DNA of 64,000 nucleotides from an uncultured Cohaesibacter sp. (GTDB lineage Bacteria; Pseudomonadota; Alphaproteobacteria; Rhizobiales; Cohaesibacteraceae). A program made the position numbers and the translations under genes. The notes below the pieces were generated by a model, which did no database searches, was not told where the DNA came from, and saw only the letters and a program-made list of their open reading frames with translations. Positions 2,200-63,471 of the stretch are shown piece by piece. The stretch lies in NCBI RefSeq assembly GCF_963676275.1, contig NZ_OY781091.1, forward strand, positions 3,326,775 to 3,390,774, written 5' to 3'. Numbering within the stretch: the first letter of the stretch is position 1; every line of letters begins with the position of its first letter.

Positions 2200-2285
2200 T
2201 GGTACGGGCGGCGGGAATCGAACCCGCACGGCCTAGGGCCTCAGGATTTTAAGTCCTGTATGTCTACCAATTCCATCACGCCCGC
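2200..2285 (-). tRNA. tRNA-Leu (anticodon UAA)
   Basis: Reading the minus strand from 2285, a seven-base acceptor stem GCGGGCG pairs with CGCCCGU (one G-U). The anticodon stem-loop is GGACTTAAAATCC (anticodon TAA), a long variable arm follows as expected for class II tRNA-Leu, then the T loop GGTTCGATTCC and an encoded CCA end at 2200. 86 nt. No integrase or duplicated 3' end was seen nearby, so no sign of use as an attachment site. Confidence 0.95.
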
Positions 2286-55006: not shown

Positions 55007-56434
55007 CTAGCTCAAGGCGTGATAGGCTTCAAGCGCGGCTTGTCGGCTGGCCTTGAGATCTACAATCGGCAGCGGATAAGTCTGCCCCAGAGTCACCCCG
55101 GCCCTCGAGAGCACCGGCTCGGGTGCCGTCCATGGCTGGAACAGATATTTATTCGGCAAGCTGGCCAGTTCAGGCACAAAGCGGCGAATATAATGCCCGT
55201 CAGGATCGAATTTCTCGGCCTGCAACACCGGATTGAAGATCCGGAAATAGGGCGCAGCATCGGCACCACAGCCAGCAACCCATTGCCAGCTTGCGGCATT
55301 GTTGGCCAGATCGGCATCCACCAGCGTATCCCAGAACCACGCTTCCCCCTTGCGCCAGTCGGTGCGCAGATTCTTGATCAGGAAGGAGGCGACAATCATC
55401 CGCACGCGGTTATGCATATAGCCGGTCTGCCAAAGCTCACGCATGCCTGCATCAACAATCGGAATGCCCGTCTTGCCTTTTTGCCATGCGGTGAGAGCAA
55501 CAGGGTCATCGCGCCATTCAAGCTGAGAAAACTTGCCCTGCAAGGGCACCGAGGCGAGATCCTGATTATAATAGAGCAGAGAGTGGGAGAATTCCCGCCA
55601 AGCCAGCTCGCTGCGGAAATGATCCATGTCGCGCGCCGGTATATCTCCCTCTTCAAGCGCTTCAAGCGCATGCCAAATCTGGTTGGGCGAGATATGCCCC
55701 CAATGCAAATAGGGCGACAGACGCGAGACATGCGGCAGAGAGGGGAAATCCCGCCCGCTCTTGTAGCCATTAAGCCCCTCTTCAACAAAGCGCTCCAGCG
55801 CCTTGCTGGCGCCCTCTTCGCCAATGTCCCAATGGGGCACCATCTGCTCATGCCACGCGATATCCGGCAGAAGGCCAAGCGCGGCAAGCGCAACGGCCCC
55901 GTCATCTGCAAGCGCGCTTGCATATTCGATCTTCTCAGGAGCAGCCATCGGCGCGGCAGGCGGGGTCGCCTGCAGGCAGCCCTTGCGGAAGAAGGGGGTG
56001 AAAACCTTGTAGGGCGTGCCATCCTGTTTTTTTATGTCCCATGGCTCCCACAGCAGCGAGCCATTCAGCCTGATGCTCTCGCTATTCTGCGCTTGCAGCC
56101 GATAAACAATCTCCTTGTCCCGCTTCACCCGCCATGGCTCATAGCAGCGCGTCCAGCTGACAGCCTGCGCACCATAGCTCTTGGCCAATGCAGGAATGAT
56201 CTGCCGCGCATCTCCCCGATAGAGACGCAAATGTCCGCCCAATTGCCGATTGAGCATCGCGAGCGCTTCATGCAGCCACCAGCGACTGGCAGCCCCCATG
56301 GCATCCGGCCCGGCATTCTCATCGTCGAGAATATAGATCGGCAGCAAGGCCCCTTTCTCGATGGCCTTGCTGAGGGCAGGATTGTCCGACAGGCGCAAAT
56401 CCTGCCGAAACCAGTGGATCGCTACATCATTCAC
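55007..56434 (-). CDS. phrB: Deoxyribodipyrimidine photolyase
   Basis: 475 residues. Light-driven repair of cyclobutane pyrimidine dimers with FADH- and an antenna cofactor. N-terminal Rossmann domain (IHWFRQDLRLSDNPAL, PIYILDDE) and C-terminal FAD domain (LSPYLHWGHISPNQIW, WREFSHSLLYYN, GIPIVDAGMRELWQTGYMHNR, WFWDTLVDADLANNAASWQW; each partial). Last gene of the rpoE-chrR-SDR-phrB operon; start overlaps the SDR stop by four bases. Confidence 0.95.
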   Translation of the reverse strand: MNDVAIHWFRQDLRLSDNPALSKAIEKGALLPIYILDDENAGPDAMGAASRWWLHEALAMLNRQLGGHLRLYRGDARQIIPALAKSYGAQAVSWTRCYEPWRVKRDKEIVYRLQAQNSESIRLNGSLLWEPWDIKKQDGTPYKVFTPFFRKGCLQATPPAAPMAAPEKIEYASALADDGAVALAALGLLPDIAWHEQMVPHWDIGEEGASKALERFVEEGLNGYKSGRDFPSLPHVSRLSPYLHWGHISPNQIWHALEALEEGDIPARDMDHFRSELAWREFSHSLLYYNQDLASVPLQGKFSQLEWRDDPVALTAWQKGKTGIPIVDAGMRELWQTGYMHNRVRMIVASFLIKNLRTDWRKGEAWFWDTLVDADLANNAASWQWVAGCGADAAPYFRIFNPVLQAEKFDPDGHYIRRFVPELASLPNKYLFQPWTAPEPVLSRAGVTLGQTYPLPIVDLKASRQAALEAYHALS

Positions 56435-57186
56435 GGTTCAATCTCCTTGCCCGCCCAATCGAAACAGAGCCCGGACTGCTCAGCACTCCGGGAGAGCAGC
56501 ACATCTATCAGACAATGGGCTGAATGGTCAGGGGAAAACAGCTTGCCATCAGGAACATTGCGCTGGAATGGCTCCGACAGCGCGCTTTCCACTGTTCCCG
56601 GATGCAGCCCGACAAGCACCGCTTCCCGATTGCGCCGCTTCAATTCGATCGCTGCACTTTTGATCATCATGTTAAGGCCTGCCTTGGAGGCGCGATAGCT
56701 GTACCAGCCTCCCAGATGATTATCCGATATCGAGCCGACGCGTGCGCTCAAAAGCCCCATCCGGAAGCCACCCTTGCGCGGTACATGGGCAAGCAGATGC
56801 TTCATGATCAGACTGGGGCCAATCAGATTGACCGCCAGCAGATGCGCCATTGCATCCTTGTCCAGTTCCTTGATGGATCGTTCGGGAAAGGCTTTCTCGT
56901 CATGCAGGATACCCGTCGCCACGACAATCAGCTCCGGTATGCCGCCCGCAACGACCCGCTCGCAGGCCGCAGCAATGCTTGCCTCATCCGTCAGATCTAG
57001 ACCGCCGATGCAATCAAGCTGCCCGCCTCCTTGCCGGAGCAATGAGGGACCATGCCGCCCGAGCGCTATCATCTCCGCTTCAGGATATTGCTCCAAGAGC
57101 CTGCGCGCGATTGCTCCGCCAACAGCACCGGTTGCGCCGAAAACGGCCACGCGCCTGATCGGCTCATTATTGCCGTAACCAGACAT
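56431..57186 (-). CDS. Short-chain dehydrogenase/reductase in the rpoE operon
   Basis: 251 residues, classical SDR with NAD(P) site VFGATGAVGGAIA and catalytic YSYRASKAGLN (Tyr-x3-Lys), similar to C-factor-like proteins. Sits between chrR (sharing its stop/start by one base) and phrB (4-base overlap). Substrate unknown; reduction of a lipid-oxidation aldehyde is plausible given the operon. Confidence 0.88.
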   Translation of the reverse strand: MSGYGNNEPIRRVAVFGATGAVGGAIARRLLEQYPEAEMIALGRHGPSLLRQGGGQLDCIGGLDLTDEASIAAACERVVAGGIPELIVVATGILHDEKAFPERSIKELDKDAMAHLLAVNLIGPSLIMKHLLAHVPRKGGFRMGLLSARVGSISDNHLGGWYSYRASKAGLNMMIKSAAIELKRRNREAVLVGLHPGTVESALSEPFQRNVPDGKLFSPDHSAHCLIDVLLSRSAEQSGLCFDWAGKEIEP

Positions 57187-57875
57187 CAGATACCGATGAT
57201 CGGCTGCAACAGGCGGGTAATCACCCCCTTAAATTCAAGCGGGGCATCGGTGCAGACAAGACAGATGCAATCCTCTTCGGTGTCGGCAATCGGTTGATGA
57301 TGCCTGTCTTCCTCGGCATCCTGAATATCGCCAGCCCGATAGCGCCCGGTCTCATCGGAAAAAGACCCCTTGAGCACGAGTGTCAACTCGCTACCGTGAT
57401 GGCTGTGATCAGGGGTAACGAAGCCGGGAGAAAGCTTGAGCAGCCGTACCTTTTCGCCCTCGGACGAGGGAACCGGCAGAAGAAACTGCTTGATTCCCGG
57501 CCCTACGGTGCGCCAGCGCACGACTCCAAAATCGCCACCGATCATTTCGGACAATAGCCGCGGCATCGAAGAGCTCTCACCAGCAACGGGCCGCTCGGGA
57601 TATCCCTCCTTTGCCTCGTCTCGCCCGATTTGCTGCACGGGAAAGCTCTGGTCTTCTTCCACATCCAGAAGGATCTGCTCAAACAGACCATCAGACAGGT
57701 CCGACGGGGCAACATCGTCGATCATGGCGCCACCGATCACTTCTGCCTCTGCAACCCGTCGGGCACAATCGGGACAAATATCCAGATGGCAGGCCACCAC
57801 CATCGACTGCCCGGCAGAAAGGCTGCCAGCAGCATAGGCCATGATCATTTCGTCGCTCAAATGATGGTGAATCAT
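57186..57875 (-). CDS. chrR: ChrR-type zinc anti-sigma factor
   Basis: 229 residues. N-terminal ZAS domain with a histidine-rich start (MIHHHLSDE) and H30-x3-C34-x2-C37 in CHLDICPDC for zinc, which holds the sigma factor; C-terminal cupin domain (PDHSHHGSELTLVLKGSFSD) with a second metal site needed for the response to singlet oxygen in Rhodobacter. Start overlaps the sigma factor stop by four bases. Confidence 0.93.
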   Translation of the reverse strand: MIHHHLSDEMIMAYAAGSLSAGQSMVVACHLDICPDCARRVAEAEVIGGAMIDDVAPSDLSDGLFEQILLDVEEDQSFPVQQIGRDEAKEGYPERPVAGESSSMPRLLSEMIGGDFGVVRWRTVGPGIKQFLLPVPSSEGEKVRLLKLSPGFVTPDHSHHGSELTLVLKGSFSDETGRYRAGDIQDAEEDRHHQPIADTEEDCICLVCTDAPLEFKGVITRLLQPIIGI

Positions 57876-58426
57876 GCTTCCACCTCCGACAAAATATTTC
57901 TCAGACGCCCGAAAGCCAGCCGCATGCGCGACTTGACCGTCCCCAGCGGCAAGGACAGCTTCTGGGCAATTTCCGCATGGGTTGCTTCATCATAAAAGGC
58001 CAGACTGACAATCTCGGCCTGATTGGAAGGCAACAGCGCCAGCGCCTTGGACACCCGCTCTACCAGTTCATTGCGATGAACCTCTGTGGTCTGTTCCTCA
58101 TCGGAAACCAGCTGCGAGGCAAAAAAGCCTTCATCTTTGTAGACAAAGCTCTTCTCCGAACGAAGACGGTCAATGCGCTGGTTGCGCGCGATGGTAAAGA
58201 TCCATGTCGAGGCGGCAGCCTTTTCCGGCTGGTAGAGATGAGCCTTGCGCCAGATCTGGGTGAAGGTTTCCTGCACCAGTTCCTCGGCCATCTGCTGGCT
58301 GGTTCCAGCCTTGAGATAAAAGCTCTTCAGGCGCGGGGCGAAATGATCGAACAACTGCCGGAAGGCATTCCGATCATGACTTTTTCCCAACGCAACAAGC
58401 ATGGCACTGAGTTGGCCAGCGGTCAT
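57872..58426 (-). CDS. rpoE: Group IV (ECF) RNA polymerase sigma factor RpoE
   Basis: 184 residues from ATG 58426, which has GGAGG seven bases upstream; an ATG at 58540 lies above the promoter and is excluded by it. Sigma-2 region FDHFAPRLKSFYLKAG and AEELVQETFTQIWRKA, then sigma-4 LPSNQAEIVSLAFYDEATHAEIA (partial) and LGTVKSRMRLAFGRLR. Partner of ChrR; directs transcription of photo-oxidative defence genes. Autoregulated through the TGATCC promoter at 58506-58535. Confidence 0.94.
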   Translation of the reverse strand: MTAGQLSAMLVALGKSHDRNAFRQLFDHFAPRLKSFYLKAGTSQQMAEELVQETFTQIWRKAHLYQPEKAAASTWIFTIARNQRIDRLRSEKSFVYKDEGFFASQLVSDEEQTTEVHRNELVERVSKALALLPSNQAEIVSLAFYDEATHAEIAQKLSLPLGTVKSRMRLAFGRLRNILSEVEA

Positions 58427-58505
58427 ACACCCGCCTCCCTTTGAGCTTTTGCAGAGAGCTTGCACCATAGTCATCTTCATTTCCATCCCAAAATGCGTTC
58501 TGATG

Positions 58506-58535
58506 CTTTTACTGGATAAGTAGAAGGACGGATCA
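58506..58535 (-). promoter_or_regulatory. RpoE-dependent promoter of the rpoE-chrR operon
   Basis: On minus: TGATCC (-35, 58535-58530), 18-base spacer, TAAAAG (-10, 58511-58506), about 80 bases before the rpoE start. TGATC is the -35 element of RpoE/ChrR promoters in Rhodobacter. Matches the facing promoter at 58600. Confidence 0.75.
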
Positions 58536-58599
58536 CACAAAGTGCGAGCCTCGGGCCAAAAAAAGTTCGCTAAAATGGAAAATCAACAATTTGAACCAG

Positions 58600-58629
58600 T
58601 GATCCATCCCCCCTGACGAAACGAATAAG
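58600..58629 (+). promoter_or_regulatory. RpoE-dependent promoter of the lipid-modification operon
   Basis: TGATCC (58600-58605), 18-base spacer, AATAAG (58624-58629), about 22 bases before the FAD oxidoreductase start. Same -35 and spacing as the divergent rpoE promoter. Confidence 0.72.
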
Positions 58630-58651
58630 GTGTAAAATCGCGGAGTTCACC

Positions 58652-60037
58652 ATGCAAATTGCAATCATCGGATCAGGTATTTCGGGCCTTTCTGCCGCCT
58701 GGCTTTTATCCAGACACCACAGCGTTGATATTTACGAAAAGGACGACCGGCTTGGCGGTCATGCCAACACCCAGAGAGTGGAAAGCTCAACCGGCCCTGT
58801 CGATGTGGATACCGGCTTCATCGTCTATAACGAGAAGACCTACCCCAATCTGACCCGTCTTTTTGCCCATCTGGAGGTGGAAACCGCCCCGTCCGACATG
58901 TCCTTCTCGGCCTGCTTGCGCGAGCGCGATCAGGAATATAGCGGTCAGGGTCTGAAGGGACTTTTTGCCAAACCGTCCAACGCCATCAATCCGCGCTTTC
59001 TGAAAATGCTGTCCGATATCCGCCGCTTCTATGCCGAAGCGCCCCGCGACATTGAAACGGTGCAGGCCCGGCAACTGACGCTGGAAGACTATCTCAAAAC
59101 CAATGGCTATAGCGAAGCTTTCATCCATGATCATCTGGTGCCCATGGGTGCGGCCATCTGGTGCATACCCTCAGAGGAAATGATGAAATTTCCCTTTGAA
59201 GCCTTCATGCGCTTTTCCATCAATCACGGTTTGGTGCAGTTTCGCGATCGGCCGCAATGGCGCACCATTGCTGGTGGCTCGCAGAATTATGTGCGCAAGA
59301 TCGTGCAGCATATTTCCGGCGAGCTTCATCTCAATCAGTCCATCTCCGCCCTTGTCCGCCGCCCCGGTTCGGTCACTCTGCGCACGCGACAGGGCCTTGA
59401 GAAGCGCTATGATCATGTGGTGCTCGCCTGCCATGCAGATCAGGCCCTGCAGATTCTGTCAGCCACAGAAGGCGATATTGATCAGGCCGAACGCGACACG
59501 CTGGCCGCTATACCCTATCACAAGAATCTTGCCATCCTGCACAAGGACCCGGCTCTGATGCCGCGCCGTCGCGCCGCATGGGCCAGTTGGAACTATATTC
59601 AGGACAGCGGCATCAAGGCCTCAGGCGATGATGGCGATCCCCGGCTCTGTGTCACCTACTGGATGAACAAGCTTCAGCCTCTGACCTGTGAGGACGATCT
59701 GTTCGTGACCCTCAATCCCATCGACCAACCGGCAGAGGGCAGCATCTTGCGTTCCCAGCTCTATCACCATCCGGTCTTTAACATGCAGGCCATAGAAGCC
59801 CAGAAGCATCTGTGGAAACTGCAGGGCAACCGACGGACATGGTTCTGCGGTGCCTATTTCGGTTATGGCTTCCATGAAGACGGCATTCAGGCAGGGCTCG
59901 CCGTGGCCGAACAGCTGGGCGGCATCAAGCGCCCATGGGCATTGGAAGAGCCCTCAAGCCGCATTCACGTCACCCCCGCAAAGACAACCAGAGACCACGC
60001 AAATGACGCGCCCCGCAAACTGGCGGTGGCAAAATGA
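58652..60037 (+). CDS. FAD-dependent oxidoreductase (amine-oxidase fold; UfaD-like)
   Basis: 461 residues. FAD-binding GSGISGLSAAWLLS at the N-terminus, HSVDIYEKDDRLGGHANT, and the C-terminal WFCGAYFGYGFHEDGIQAG typical of this flavoprotein subgroup. It is conserved beside DUF1365 and CFA-like genes in ChrR regulons. In Rhodobacter a flavoprotein of this locus (UfaD) desaturates methylated fatty acids on the way to furan fatty acids; homology by position and type only. CGGAG precedes the ATG. Confidence 0.85.
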   Translation: MQIAIIGSGISGLSAAWLLSRHHSVDIYEKDDRLGGHANTQRVESSTGPVDVDTGFIVYNEKTYPNLTRLFAHLEVETAPSDMSFSACLRERDQEYSGQGLKGLFAKPSNAINPRFLKMLSDIRRFYAEAPRDIETVQARQLTLEDYLKTNGYSEAFIHDHLVPMGAAIWCIPSEEMMKFPFEAFMRFSINHGLVQFRDRPQWRTIAGGSQNYVRKIVQHISGELHLNQSISALVRRPGSVTLRTRQGLEKRYDHVVLACHADQALQILSATEGDIDQAERDTLAAIPYHKNLAILHKDPALMPRRRAAWASWNYIQDSGIKASGDDGDPRLCVTYWMNKLQPLTCEDDLFVTLNPIDQPAEGSILRSQLYHHPVFNMQAIEAQKHLWKLQGNRRTWFCGAYFGYGFHEDGIQAGLAVAEQLGGIKRPWALEEPSSRIHVTPAKTTRDHANDAPRKLAVAK

Positions 60038-60885
60038 CAAAGAATGCTCCGTCCAAATTTGCTCCCGCGCCCTGCCTCTATGAGGGCGTCGTCACCCATA
60101 TTCGCACTGGCGCGCTGGAGCATCGCCTCGCCTACAAGGTGACCTCGCTATTGCTGCCGCTTGATCAACTCAAGCAAATCGACCGGATATCGCCGCTTTT
60201 CTCGGTCAACCGCTTCAACCTGATCAGCTTTCATGAGGCGGATTATATCGAGCCACCATTCGACAGCCTGCAAGGCTATCTCGAACATCTGATCGAGCAA
60301 TCCGGCGAATTCCCGATGGATGGAGAGCGCCCCACCCGCTTCGTGGTACTGACTTGCCCGCGCCTTCTGGGGCGGACATTCAATCCGCTGACCATCTTCT
60401 TTTGTTGCGACAGGGAGAACCGTCTTAAGGCCATTCTCTATCAGGTCAGCAACACATTCGGGCAAAGACATCACTATATCTACCGACTTGCCAACGACGA
60501 GAGCAATTTGTCACAGGATGCGCGATTAAGGCATGAAGGAAAAAAGATTTTCTATGTATCGCCCTTTCTGGACATAGCTGGAGAATACAGCTTTTCCATC
60601 CGCCTTCCACATGAAAAGCTTTCCTACCAGATAGGGCTCAGCGGCGGTCAACCTTCCGCGCTCATGGCCTCCTTCGTGGCACAAAAAAAGCCTTTCAACA
60701 CTAGAAATCTGCTTTTGACTTTTGTTAGGCTAGTGCAGAGCGGATGGAAGATCCTCGCGGCCATACATCTCGAAGCCCTGAAACTATGGCGCAAGGGCGC
60801 TCCATTTTACAAGCGCCCCGCAGCGCCGTCCGAACCCGTTTCAGCTCTTCACCGCTCGAAATTTGGGAAAGGATTGCATCAATGA
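60034..60885 (+). CDS. DUF1365 family protein
   Basis: 283 residues. Recognised by LYEGVVTHIRTGALEHRLAYKV near the N-terminus (partial), PRLLGRTFNPLTIFFC and KIFYVSPFLDIAGEYSF. No known catalytic motif. DUF1365 genes almost always sit between an FAD oxidoreductase and a CFA-type methyltransferase; one candidate role is the oxygen-inserting step of furan fatty acid synthesis. Overlaps both neighbours (ATGA at each end). Confidence 0.88.
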   Translation: MTKNAPSKFAPAPCLYEGVVTHIRTGALEHRLAYKVTSLLLPLDQLKQIDRISPLFSVNRFNLISFHEADYIEPPFDSLQGYLEHLIEQSGEFPMDGERPTRFVVLTCPRLLGRTFNPLTIFFCCDRENRLKAILYQVSNTFGQRHHYIYRLANDESNLSQDARLRHEGKKIFYVSPFLDIAGEYSFSIRLPHEKLSYQIGLSGGQPSALMASFVAQKKPFNTRNLLLTFVRLVQSGWKILAAIHLEALKLWRKGAPFYKRPAAPSEPVSALHRSKFGKGLHQ

Positions 60886-62138
60886 GTTTGCAGAAGAATA
60901 TTTCGCATTCAGAATTTGATCGCTCTGGCTCCATGACAGAGTCTGCGCACCCCACGATGCAGGGACGCATCTGGCAGCATTTTCTCGGCCCCATTTTCTC
61001 CGGGCTGCATTATGGCCATGTGGAATTCATTCTCCCCTCCGGCGGCAAGCTTGCCTTTGGCTCTGGCAATGAAAAGGATCCCCGTGTACGGGTTCATATT
61101 CACCGCCACAGGACGCTCTGGAACATCCTGACCAAAGGCATGCTCGGGGTGGCAGAAAGCTTCATGTCCGCACATTGGAGCTGTGACAATCTGGCGAGAC
61201 TGTTCGATCTCTGCCTCAAGAACCGCACGATCTACGACAATCTCTATGCCCATGGAAAACTGGCCCGCTGGATCGCCCATCTCAAGCATCTGACCCGCGC
61301 CAACAGCATCAGGGGCAGTCGCAAGAATATCTCCTTCCATTATGATTTGGGCAATGAATTCTATCAGCTCTGGCTCGATCCGACGATGACCTATTCATCG
61401 GCTTACCGGACCGCAGACAATGAGACGCTGGAACATTCCCAGATCCGCAAGCTGGACCGCGTGCTGGAATTGAGCAACGCCCGCCAAGGCGAAACGATCC
61501 TTGAGATCGGCTGCGGCTGGGGTGCCTTTGCCGAGCGCGCCGCCCATATCGGCTGCAAGGTGGAAGGGCTGACCCTGTCGACCGAACAGCTGGATTTTTC
61601 GCAGAAGCGAGCCAAGGCCAAGGGCTTTGACGAACTCGCCCGCTTTCATCTGCGCGACTATCGCCATGAGGCCGGTCAATATGACGCCATTGCTTCCATC
61701 GAGATGATAGAAGCGGTGGGAGAAGAGCATTGGCCAACCTATTTCAGACATCTGCACGACAATCTCCGCCCCGGAGGGCGGGCAGCGCTTCAGGCCATCA
61801 CCATCGATGAAAATGGCTATGCCAGATATCGCAGCGGGGCGGATTTCATCCAGACTTTCATTTTCCCCGGTGGCATGCTGCCCACCGAGGATCATCTCGA
61901 CCATCACGCCAGAAAGGCCGGTCTTGTCCCCGTCTTCAAGGAAACTTTCGCGCCCGATTATGCCAAGACACTGGCGCGCTGGAGCAAGGCTTTTCTGGCC
62001 CAGTGGCCGCAGATTGCCAAGCTTGGCTATGATGAACGCTTCAAGCGCATGTGGCTGTTTTATCTGGCCTATTGTGAGGCAGGCTTTGCCAACCGGACCA
62101 TCAATGTGGGGCATTATTGCTACGAGCGCCCCACATAG
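60882..62138 (+). CDS. Cyclopropane-fatty-acyl-phospholipid synthase family methyltransferase
   Basis: 418 residues from ATG 60882, overlapping the DUF1365 stop; an upstream ATG at 60744 lies inside that gene. SAM motif ILEIGCGWGAFAERAA, SISFHYDLGNEFYQLWLD-type N-terminal loop (partial: FHYDLGNEFY), VEGLTLSTEQ and IEMIEAVGEEHW. Transfers methyl or methylene from SAM to membrane unsaturated acyl chains. In this operon it may be a UfaM-type C-methyltransferase and not a true CFA synthase. Confidence 0.92.
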   Translation: MSLQKNISHSEFDRSGSMTESAHPTMQGRIWQHFLGPIFSGLHYGHVEFILPSGGKLAFGSGNEKDPRVRVHIHRHRTLWNILTKGMLGVAESFMSAHWSCDNLARLFDLCLKNRTIYDNLYAHGKLARWIAHLKHLTRANSIRGSRKNISFHYDLGNEFYQLWLDPTMTYSSAYRTADNETLEHSQIRKLDRVLELSNARQGETILEIGCGWGAFAERAAHIGCKVEGLTLSTEQLDFSQKRAKAKGFDELARFHLRDYRHEAGQYDAIASIEMIEAVGEEHWPTYFRHLHDNLRPGGRAALQAITIDENGYARYRSGADFIQTFIFPGGMLPTEDHLDHHARKAGLVPVFKETFAPDYAKTLARWSKAFLAQWPQIAKLGYDERFKRMWLFYLAYCEAGFANRTINVGHYCYERPT

Positions 62139-62216: not shown

Positions 62217-62666
62217 TCAGATGCTCGCCTTTTGCCGGATTTTCCGGATCATCCAGCCGACAAGCGGTAGCCGGTCATAGAAATGGCGGCTGGCGTCCCA
62301 ATAATCGAAATGGGCGCAAATCTTGCCGGCCCCGTTGAATCTGATCTCGCTCACTCCGCGCACTTTCCAGTCGCCAATATAGGCAACCGTACAGGAAAAA
62401 TCCCACCGCATCAGGCAAAGGTCCGGATCATCGGACCATGCCAGATCAAGGATCTCGAAGCGGGGCTCTTTCACATCCTCGAACATCTTGTCGACAATGC
62501 GCTGGAAATTCTCCCGCCCTCGCACATCATTGAAGGGGTCGATGAAATGGATGTCATCGGCGATCAGGCCTTGCGCATCCTGCGTTGTTTCCGGGCTGAG
62601 CGTCTCGAAATATTGCGCATAAGCACGCGCCACACCAAGCCTTTTATCACTCGGAACAAACATCAC
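62217..62666 (-). CDS. NTF2-like (SnoaL-fold) protein
   Basis: 149 residues, single cone-shaped domain: VARAYAQYFETLSPET, DDIHFIDPFNDVRGRENFQRI, MRWDFSC and a C-terminal DYWDASRHFYDRLPLVGWMIR. SnoaL-like proteins bind or isomerise small hydrophobic ligands. It follows the SDR gene through an ATGA overlap; the same SDR/NTF2 pair is found in other ChrR regulons. Function unknown. Confidence 0.83.
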   Translation of the reverse strand: MMFVPSDKRLGVARAYAQYFETLSPETTQDAQGLIADDIHFIDPFNDVRGRENFQRIVDKMFEDVKEPRFEILDLAWSDDPDLCLMRWDFSCTVAYIGDWKVRGVSEIRFNGAGKICAHFDYWDASRHFYDRLPLVGWMIRKIRQKASI

Positions 62667-63418
62667 AGCATCCTTCTCATGAGGCGGAAATAGAGACCAT
62701 AGGGAAGACGGCGCAACAGCCTGAGCACAAGCACCAGACGCAAGGGAAAGGCTATTTCGAAAGCGCGCCCCTCAAGGCCCTTGGCGATGCGCTCTGCGGC
62801 ATCTTGCGGGGACAGAAGAAACGGCATGGCAAAGCTGTTCTTCTCCGTCATCGGGGTGTCGACAAAGCCGGGATTGATCAATTGCAGCCGGATTCCCGCC
62901 GCATCAAATTCGGGCCTGATCGTTTCGCAAAGGCTGGCAAGCGCGGCCTTGGTCGGGCCATAAAGGGCGGCCAGTGGCAAGCCGCAATAGGAGGTGAGCG
63001 AGGCTACGATGGCAATCGAGCTGCCGCCCTTTGCCTTCAATCCCGGATAGAGCGCTTCAAGAACCGACACGGCACCAAGATAATTGACCTGCATATGTGC
63101 TTGGGCGGCTTTAAGGCTTAGTTGCTCTATGCCGCCGGGTTGATAAATGGCGGCACAATAGATGGTCAGATCCGGTAAGCCACCATTGGCCTCAAACCAG
63201 CGCACGGCACCAGAGACATCTTCCGGCCTGCCGACATCAAGCGGCAGAGCCCTGATCGCGGCGCATTCCTGCGCCAGCCCTTCGAGCTTTTCGATGCTGC
63301 GGGCACTGACGAAAATCTCCGGGCAGGAACGGGCAAGCAGCCGCGCCAGCTCCGCACCGATGCCCGAACTGGCACCGATGATCCAGACCCTGTTCCATAA
63401 TCGCAAATGTTGGCTCAT
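62663..63418 (-). CDS. Short-chain dehydrogenase/reductase
   Basis: 251 residues from ATG 63418, with AAGGAG about ten bases upstream; ATG 63445 overlaps the proposed -10. Classical SDR: IIGASSGIGAELARLL, catalytic Ser/Tyr/Lys in IVASLTSYCGLPLAALYGPTKAA, and NPGFVDTPMTEKN. First gene of the SDR/NTF2 pair; possible RpoE promoter at 63442-63471. Substrate unknown. Confidence 0.88.
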   Translation of the reverse strand: MSQHLRLWNRVWIIGASSGIGAELARLLARSCPEIFVSARSIEKLEGLAQECAAIRALPLDVGRPEDVSGAVRWFEANGGLPDLTIYCAAIYQPGGIEQLSLKAAQAHMQVNYLGAVSVLEALYPGLKAKGGSSIAIVASLTSYCGLPLAALYGPTKAALASLCETIRPEFDAAGIRLQLINPGFVDTPMTEKNSFAMPFLLSPQDAAERIAKGLEGRAFEIAFPLRLVLVLRLLRRLPYGLYFRLMRRML

Positions 63419-63441: not shown

Positions 63442-63471
63442 GCAATACGGAATGACGGGCGCCTCAGATCA
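63442..63471 (-). promoter_or_regulatory. Possible third RpoE-dependent promoter
   Basis: On minus: TGATCT (63471-63466), 18-base spacer, TATTGC (63447-63442), about 24 bases before the SDR start. Five of six -35 bases and the spacing match the two promoters at 58.5 kb. Confidence 0.5.

Follow-up and report, generated by a model that had tools for sequence, protein, structure and literature searches.

A compact RpoE–ChrR (ECF11) locus with a probable furan-lipid operon in a genome without reaction-centre genes

Introduction

Regulons controlled by RpoE and ChrR have a core of approximately eight genes and occur in photosynthetic and non-photosynthetic species (PMC6852236, PMC5507510). Their promoter consensus is TGATCC-N16-CGTA (PMC5507510), and similar sites are described in PMC4336711. 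In Pseudomonas syringae (PSPTO_1043-1042, PSPTO_1121-1114), each of the eight core genes has a homologue and the TGATCC-N16-CGTA motif recurs (PMC5507510). In Pseudomonas mendocina, ufaM is induced by light (PMC9758184).

The lipid branch of the regulon consists of UfaM (a SAM-dependent methylase), UfaD and UfaO, which convert vaccenoyl chains into 9M5-FuFA; UfaD, which carries an NAD-FAD-binding domain, acts as the desaturase, and UfaO belongs to the DUF1365 family and uses O2 (PMC7380195, Lemke 2020). Rhodopseudomonas palustris makes 9M5-FuFA with ufaM, ufaO and ufaD adjoining as RPA2569, 2570 and 2571 (PMC7380195), and additionally makes a dimethyl furan via FufM. In Halomonas sp. YLGW01, ufaM, ufaD and ufaO are consecutive; its UfaM expressed in E. 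coli yields 11-methyloctadec-12-enoate, whereas its Cfa yields cyclopropane acids, and the excerpted text does not mention a link to ChrR (PMC12089945). The core regulon, its carriage by non-phototrophs and contiguous ufaDOM genes are all already in print.

Here we describe a locus, within a 64-kb stretch of DNA (the window), that is very probably a compact RpoE–ChrR (ECF11) photo-oxidative stress regulon with a furan-lipid operon. The regulon plus ufaDOM thereby gains a further example, both compact and complete, from a genome without reaction-centre genes.

Results and discussion

Organisation of the locus

The genes rpoE and chrR, an SDR gene and a photolyase gene follow one another on the minus strand, with overlaps of 4, 1 and 4 bases. 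Divergent from them, on the plus strand, genes for an FAD oxidoreductase, a DUF1365 protein and a CFA-type methyltransferase overlap by 4 and 4 bases (Table 1). The two facing, overlapping operons described in the initial annotation are present, and the Pfam and NCBIfam families agree with them. The span given there, 57872..62138, does hold rpoE and the ufa genes, but the SDR and photolyase genes lie to the left of 57872, and sdr2-ntf2 (62217-63418) had been missed. Gene identity, order, phylogeny, metal ligands and promoter-like sites are read directly from the locus, and chance is not an issue for the presence of the genes.

Table 1. Genes and ECF11-like sites of the locus, in window coordinates.
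Feature	Coordinates	Strand	Evidence
phr, DNA photolyase	55007..56434	-	Pfam FAD_binding_7 294 bits (cut-off 27) and DNA_photolyase 156 bits, both above cut-off
sdr1, SDR	56431..57186	-	Pfam adh_short 46.6 bits
chrR, zinc-cupin anti-sigma factor	57186..57875	-	TIGR02451 204.7 bits (cut-off 124.5)
rpoE, ECF sigma factor	57872..58426	-	Sigma70_r2 61.9 bits, r4 50.3 bits; start taken as ATG 58426
ECF11-like site before rpoE, TGATCC-N16-AGTA	58510..58535	-	one mismatch to TGATCY-N16-CGTA
ECF11-like site before ufaD, TGATCC-N16-CGAA	58600..58625	+	one mismatch to TGATCY-N16-CGTA
ufaD, predicted FAD-dependent acyl desaturase	58652..60037	+	Pfam Amino_oxidase 85.6 bits
ufaO, predicted DUF1365 furan-forming enzyme	60034..60885	+	PF07103 220.1 bits (cut-off 25)
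ufaM, predicted SAM-dependent acyl methylase	60882..62138	+	PF02353 (CMAS) 263.7 bits (cut-off 27)
ntf2, SnoaL/NTF2-like, overlaps sdr2	62217..62666	-	SnoaL_2 49.5 bits
sdr2, RSP1087-like SDR	62663..63418	-	adh_short 110.7 bits
ECF11-like site before sdr2-ntf2, TGATCT-N16-CGTA	63446..63471	-	no mismatch; only exact match in the window

Two gene starts differ from the ORF list. The rpoE frame as listed extends to TTG 58540, within the promoter-like site; ATG 58486 and ATG 58426 are possible starts, and the latter agrees with the 181-aa Cereibacter RpoE. For ufaM, whose listed frame opens at 60744, the start is most likely 60882. The photolyase reached the cut-off of no NCBIfam photolyase model, and the best NCBIfam match of sdr1, PRK09009, scored 195.7 bits where its cut-off is 330. 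Across the window, Rfam models reach their gathering score only once, at a tRNA gene (2203-2285, minus strand).

For comparison with R. sphaeroides (RSP1087-1091, RSP2143-2144) we used close kin, Cereibacter johrii (L034) and 'Luteovulum' azotoformans (L035), whose ChrR proteins are 96% and 89% identical, respectively, to the R. sphaeroides chain in the PDB. The kin share with the window the regulator pair, the promoter type, the presence of ufaD, ufaO and an SDR gene beside rpoE, and a photolyase gene, which in the kin adjoins ufaM. They differ in that ufaM lies away from the ufaD/ufaO locus and in that the operon holds MFS transporter and DUF3833 genes; in the window, ufaM is part of the operon, sdr1 and the photolyase gene accompany rpoE, and an NTF2-like gene is present. 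Each of the two kin genomes has one full-length CMAS, encoded beside a photolyase gene, as expected from RSP2143-2144 (PMC5507510). Over the aligned parts, identities between window and kin are 42% for RpoE, 40% for ChrR, 40% for UfaD, 32% for UfaO, 43% for UfaM and 31% for sdr2 (against the SDR encoded in the Cereibacter operon). The adjoining ufa genes resemble those of R. palustris and Halomonas sp. YLGW01. The pairing of an ECF sigma factor with ChrR is shared with P. syringae, whose regulon genes, unlike those of the window, are spread over three loci (PMC5507510).

The RpoE–ChrR pair and its candidate promoters

The gene adjoining that of the ECF sigma factor encodes a ChrR-family anti-sigma factor that retains all eight zinc ligands, four in each domain (H5, H30, C34 and C37; H157, H159, E163 and H193), at the positions described for R. 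sphaeroides ChrR (PMC6852236). Together with a TIGR02451 score above cut-off and the ECF11-like sites, this bears out the RpoE–ChrR identity proposed initially.

It is possible, though we consider it rather unlikely, that the genes are correctly identified while the usual trigger is not singlet oxygen but organic peroxide, UV or metal. The window ChrR matches the NCBIfam ChrR equivalog annotated as cadmium/peroxide/UV responsive, albeit at 157.3 bits against a cut-off of 300, and PufL/M were not found in the whole genome, which extends to that scale the earlier remark that no photosynthesis genes were in view. Against this, the core regulon and the zinc ligands are those of the singlet-oxygen system, and the alternative signals are not exclusive of it.

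Allowing one mismatch, TGATCY-N16-CGTA occurs 10 times in the window, compared to a mean of 4.57 in 100 shuffles, two of which reach 10; the excess is modest. Three of the 10 matches, each correctly oriented, immediately precede rpoE, ufaD and sdr2. With 1, 1 and 0 mismatches to TGATCY-N16-CGTA, respectively, they are approximate matches, a measure of likeness and not of function, and the rpoE and ufaD sites are each one base off the -10 consensus. Of 71 named loci in which rpoE and ufaD diverge, 68 have sites in both directions by a slightly different pattern, which 3 of 1,420 base-shuffled stretches match and which the window ufaD site, ending in CGAA, would fail. The whole genome holds 17 exact sites, compared to three for the reversed pattern, and 13 of the 17 fall inside a frame of the ORF list. 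Elsewhere in this genome, one exact site lies approximately 200 bases before a ferrochelatase gene (L158 1501-2760) and another just before a gene for an AhpC/TSA-family peroxiredoxin (L162 1501-2084). Ferrochelatase would remove protoporphyrin, a photosensitiser.

UfaD and UfaO

The window encodes an FAD desaturase, a DUF1365 protein and a CMAS methylase together, the gene set expected of UfaMDO. The initial annotation was uncertain which gene corresponds to UfaO; since UfaO is a DUF1365 protein and RPA2570 is ufaO in PMC7380195, it is the DUF1365 gene. The window protein is among the more divergent members of the family, at 220 bits compared to a best score of 292 in the class sample described below. 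This divergence, and the low identity to Cereibacter UfaO given above, leave some room for a pathway that ends at another product (for instance the mono-ene or di-ene with its methyl group, or a positional variant of the furan acid). We regard such an outcome as improbable, as the operon is intact and the 24 alignment columns invariant in 49 UfaO sequences are kept in the window protein, although by construction. A furan product from UfaO remains our preferred reading.

UfaM is distinct from classical CFA synthases

Phylogeny, which the initial annotation had named as the check on the methyltransferase, places it apart from the classical CFA synthases. In a 77-row tree (bootstrap not settled), a clade of 47 rows supported at 100/100 takes in window UfaM, 43 enzymes whose genes lie next to those of UfaD or UfaO, L152 and the two Cereibacter enzymes, which stand in for R. 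sphaeroides. The other clade contains L001, the second full-length CMAS of the genome, and 28 of the 29 best-scoring CMAS rows from the class sample, and E. coli Cfa lies outside the 47-row clade on a long branch. In the flanking stretches of approximately 1.5 kb in each direction, neither the 28 unlinked CMAS genes of the class nor L152 has a UfaD or UfaO neighbour. Both trees and the residue count exclude L153, which carries the gene already represented by L011, and the count treats L152 separately.

The pocket residues tell the groups apart as well. Window UfaM carries S173, A278 and Q304 at the positions of E. coli C139, H240 and H266. Among the 43 linked enzymes, the C139 column holds 37 S, 5 A and 1 G, while the H240 column is A and the H266 column Q in 43/43; S, A and Q are also the residues of L152 and of the two Cereibacter enzymes. 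In contrast, C139 and H240 are kept in 28/28 unlinked class CMAS and H266 in 27/28, the exception having Q, and L001 retains all three. We take C139 of E. coli Cfa to be a ligand, and H240 serves solely as a column separating the two groups. In the solved mycobacterial MmaA1, whose product is presumably a trans olefin with a methyl branch, the H240 column is A, with C139 and H266 kept. E239, I268 and Y317 are common to all rows counted. In the structure of E. coli Cfa, a bicarbonate ion contacts Glu239, His266 and Tyr317 (PMC11387697), and the substitutions suggest that UfaM has lost part of the ring-closing pocket.

It is very improbable that the window methyltransferase is a conventional CFA synthase in an operon for cyclopropane lipids. 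The window enzyme does match the CMAS family and solved CFA synthases, and its best NCBIfam matches are CFA models, all below cut-off; however, its place in the tree, the replacement of all three residues and a second full-length CMAS in the genome that keeps them argue for a UfaM. The furan-pathway reading of the trio is supported by the gene set, the R. palustris-like arrangement, the tree and the loss of CFA pocket residues, and the last two disfavour the cyclopropane alternative offered beside it initially.

S/A, A and Q versus C, H and H could serve as a sequence test that tells furan-pathway methylases from classical CFA-type enzymes; with the two histidine columns counted, it separates the groups in all but one of 76 rows. 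A narrow literature search did not find this signature in print, and we do not claim that it is unpublished.

A model for the locus

The signal, the enzyme reactions and the lipid product are proposed by analogy with work in Rhodobacter and Rhodopseudomonas. ChrR would hold RpoE until singlet oxygen or organic peroxide leads to ChrR turnover, upon which RpoE would transcribe its own operon, with the SDR and photolyase genes, as well as ufaD-ufaO-ufaM and probably sdr2-ntf2. UfaM would then methylate the cis-vaccenoyl chains of phospholipids; desaturation of the product by UfaD would give a conjugated diene, from which UfaO would form the furan with oxygen derived from O2. The furan would scavenge singlet oxygen, with a possible feedback on the turnover of ChrR.

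Regarding how UfaO works, structure comparison with calycin-type barrels (nitrobindin, FABP and CpcS) leaves a calycin-like barrel as a low-confidence candidate fold for UfaO. By published masses, diene plus O2 would give furan plus H2O, the basis for a reductant-free reading of UfaO. A joint and speculative proposal, which we hold to be doubtful as a whole, is that UfaO, folded as a lipid-binding barrel of calycin-like form and extended by a long C-terminal helix, makes the furan from the conjugated diene and O2 with no outside reductant, and that UfaM is a relative of CFA synthase that, because its pocket has lost a bicarbonate ligand, would stop at the methylated olefin and not close the ring. 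The UfaM active-site signature and the UfaO barrel are two modest leads, and the window example makes UfaO chemistry easier to test. With the light-stress switch and the three-gene furan-lipid set adjoining in a bacterium without photosynthesis genes, the locus is a clear further example of its kind.

Distribution across the class

The class sample comprised 289 genomes of the same class, taken as Alphaproteobacteria from protein kinship. PufL/M occur in 20 of them, DUF1365 in 153, and ChrR over cut-off in 114 (166 at E <= 0.001). At least 108 genomes, among the 150 of the 153 DUF1365 genomes listed, have both DUF1365 and ChrR over cut-off, and in at least 62 of these 108 the two lie within 10 kb, a minimum, since many of the genomes are fragmented. 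ChrR over cut-off is missing from between 42 and 45 of the 153 genomes with DUF1365, and the pathway is therefore not tied to this regulator. Around the best 30 DUF1365 loci, ufaD was present in 30/30 and ufaM in 28/30 within 3.7 kb, in the order ufaD-O-M in 28/30.

The ufaD-ufaO-ufaM genes also occur without ChrR, mostly in small genomes, as seen in regions from 20 of the 42 listed DUF1365 genomes with no ChrR over cut-off (L171-L190, with the ufa genes at approximately 1-7 kb of each); ChrR had no match in 17 of these and a weak match in three (G025, G135 and G251). Both ufaD and ufaO are present in all 20 regions, and ufaM accompanies them in 18, with the S/A/Q pattern in 16 of the 18; one of the 18 ufaO-linked methylases keeps C at C139. 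A second CMAS-like gene in L180 shows a different residue pattern. The sdr2-ntf2 pair adjoins the ufa genes in four of the 20 regions (L173, L183, L186 and L187), a hint that sdr2-ntf2 is part of the module. UfaD-like proteins were also seen on 126 plasmid records, 24 of them from Streptomyces.
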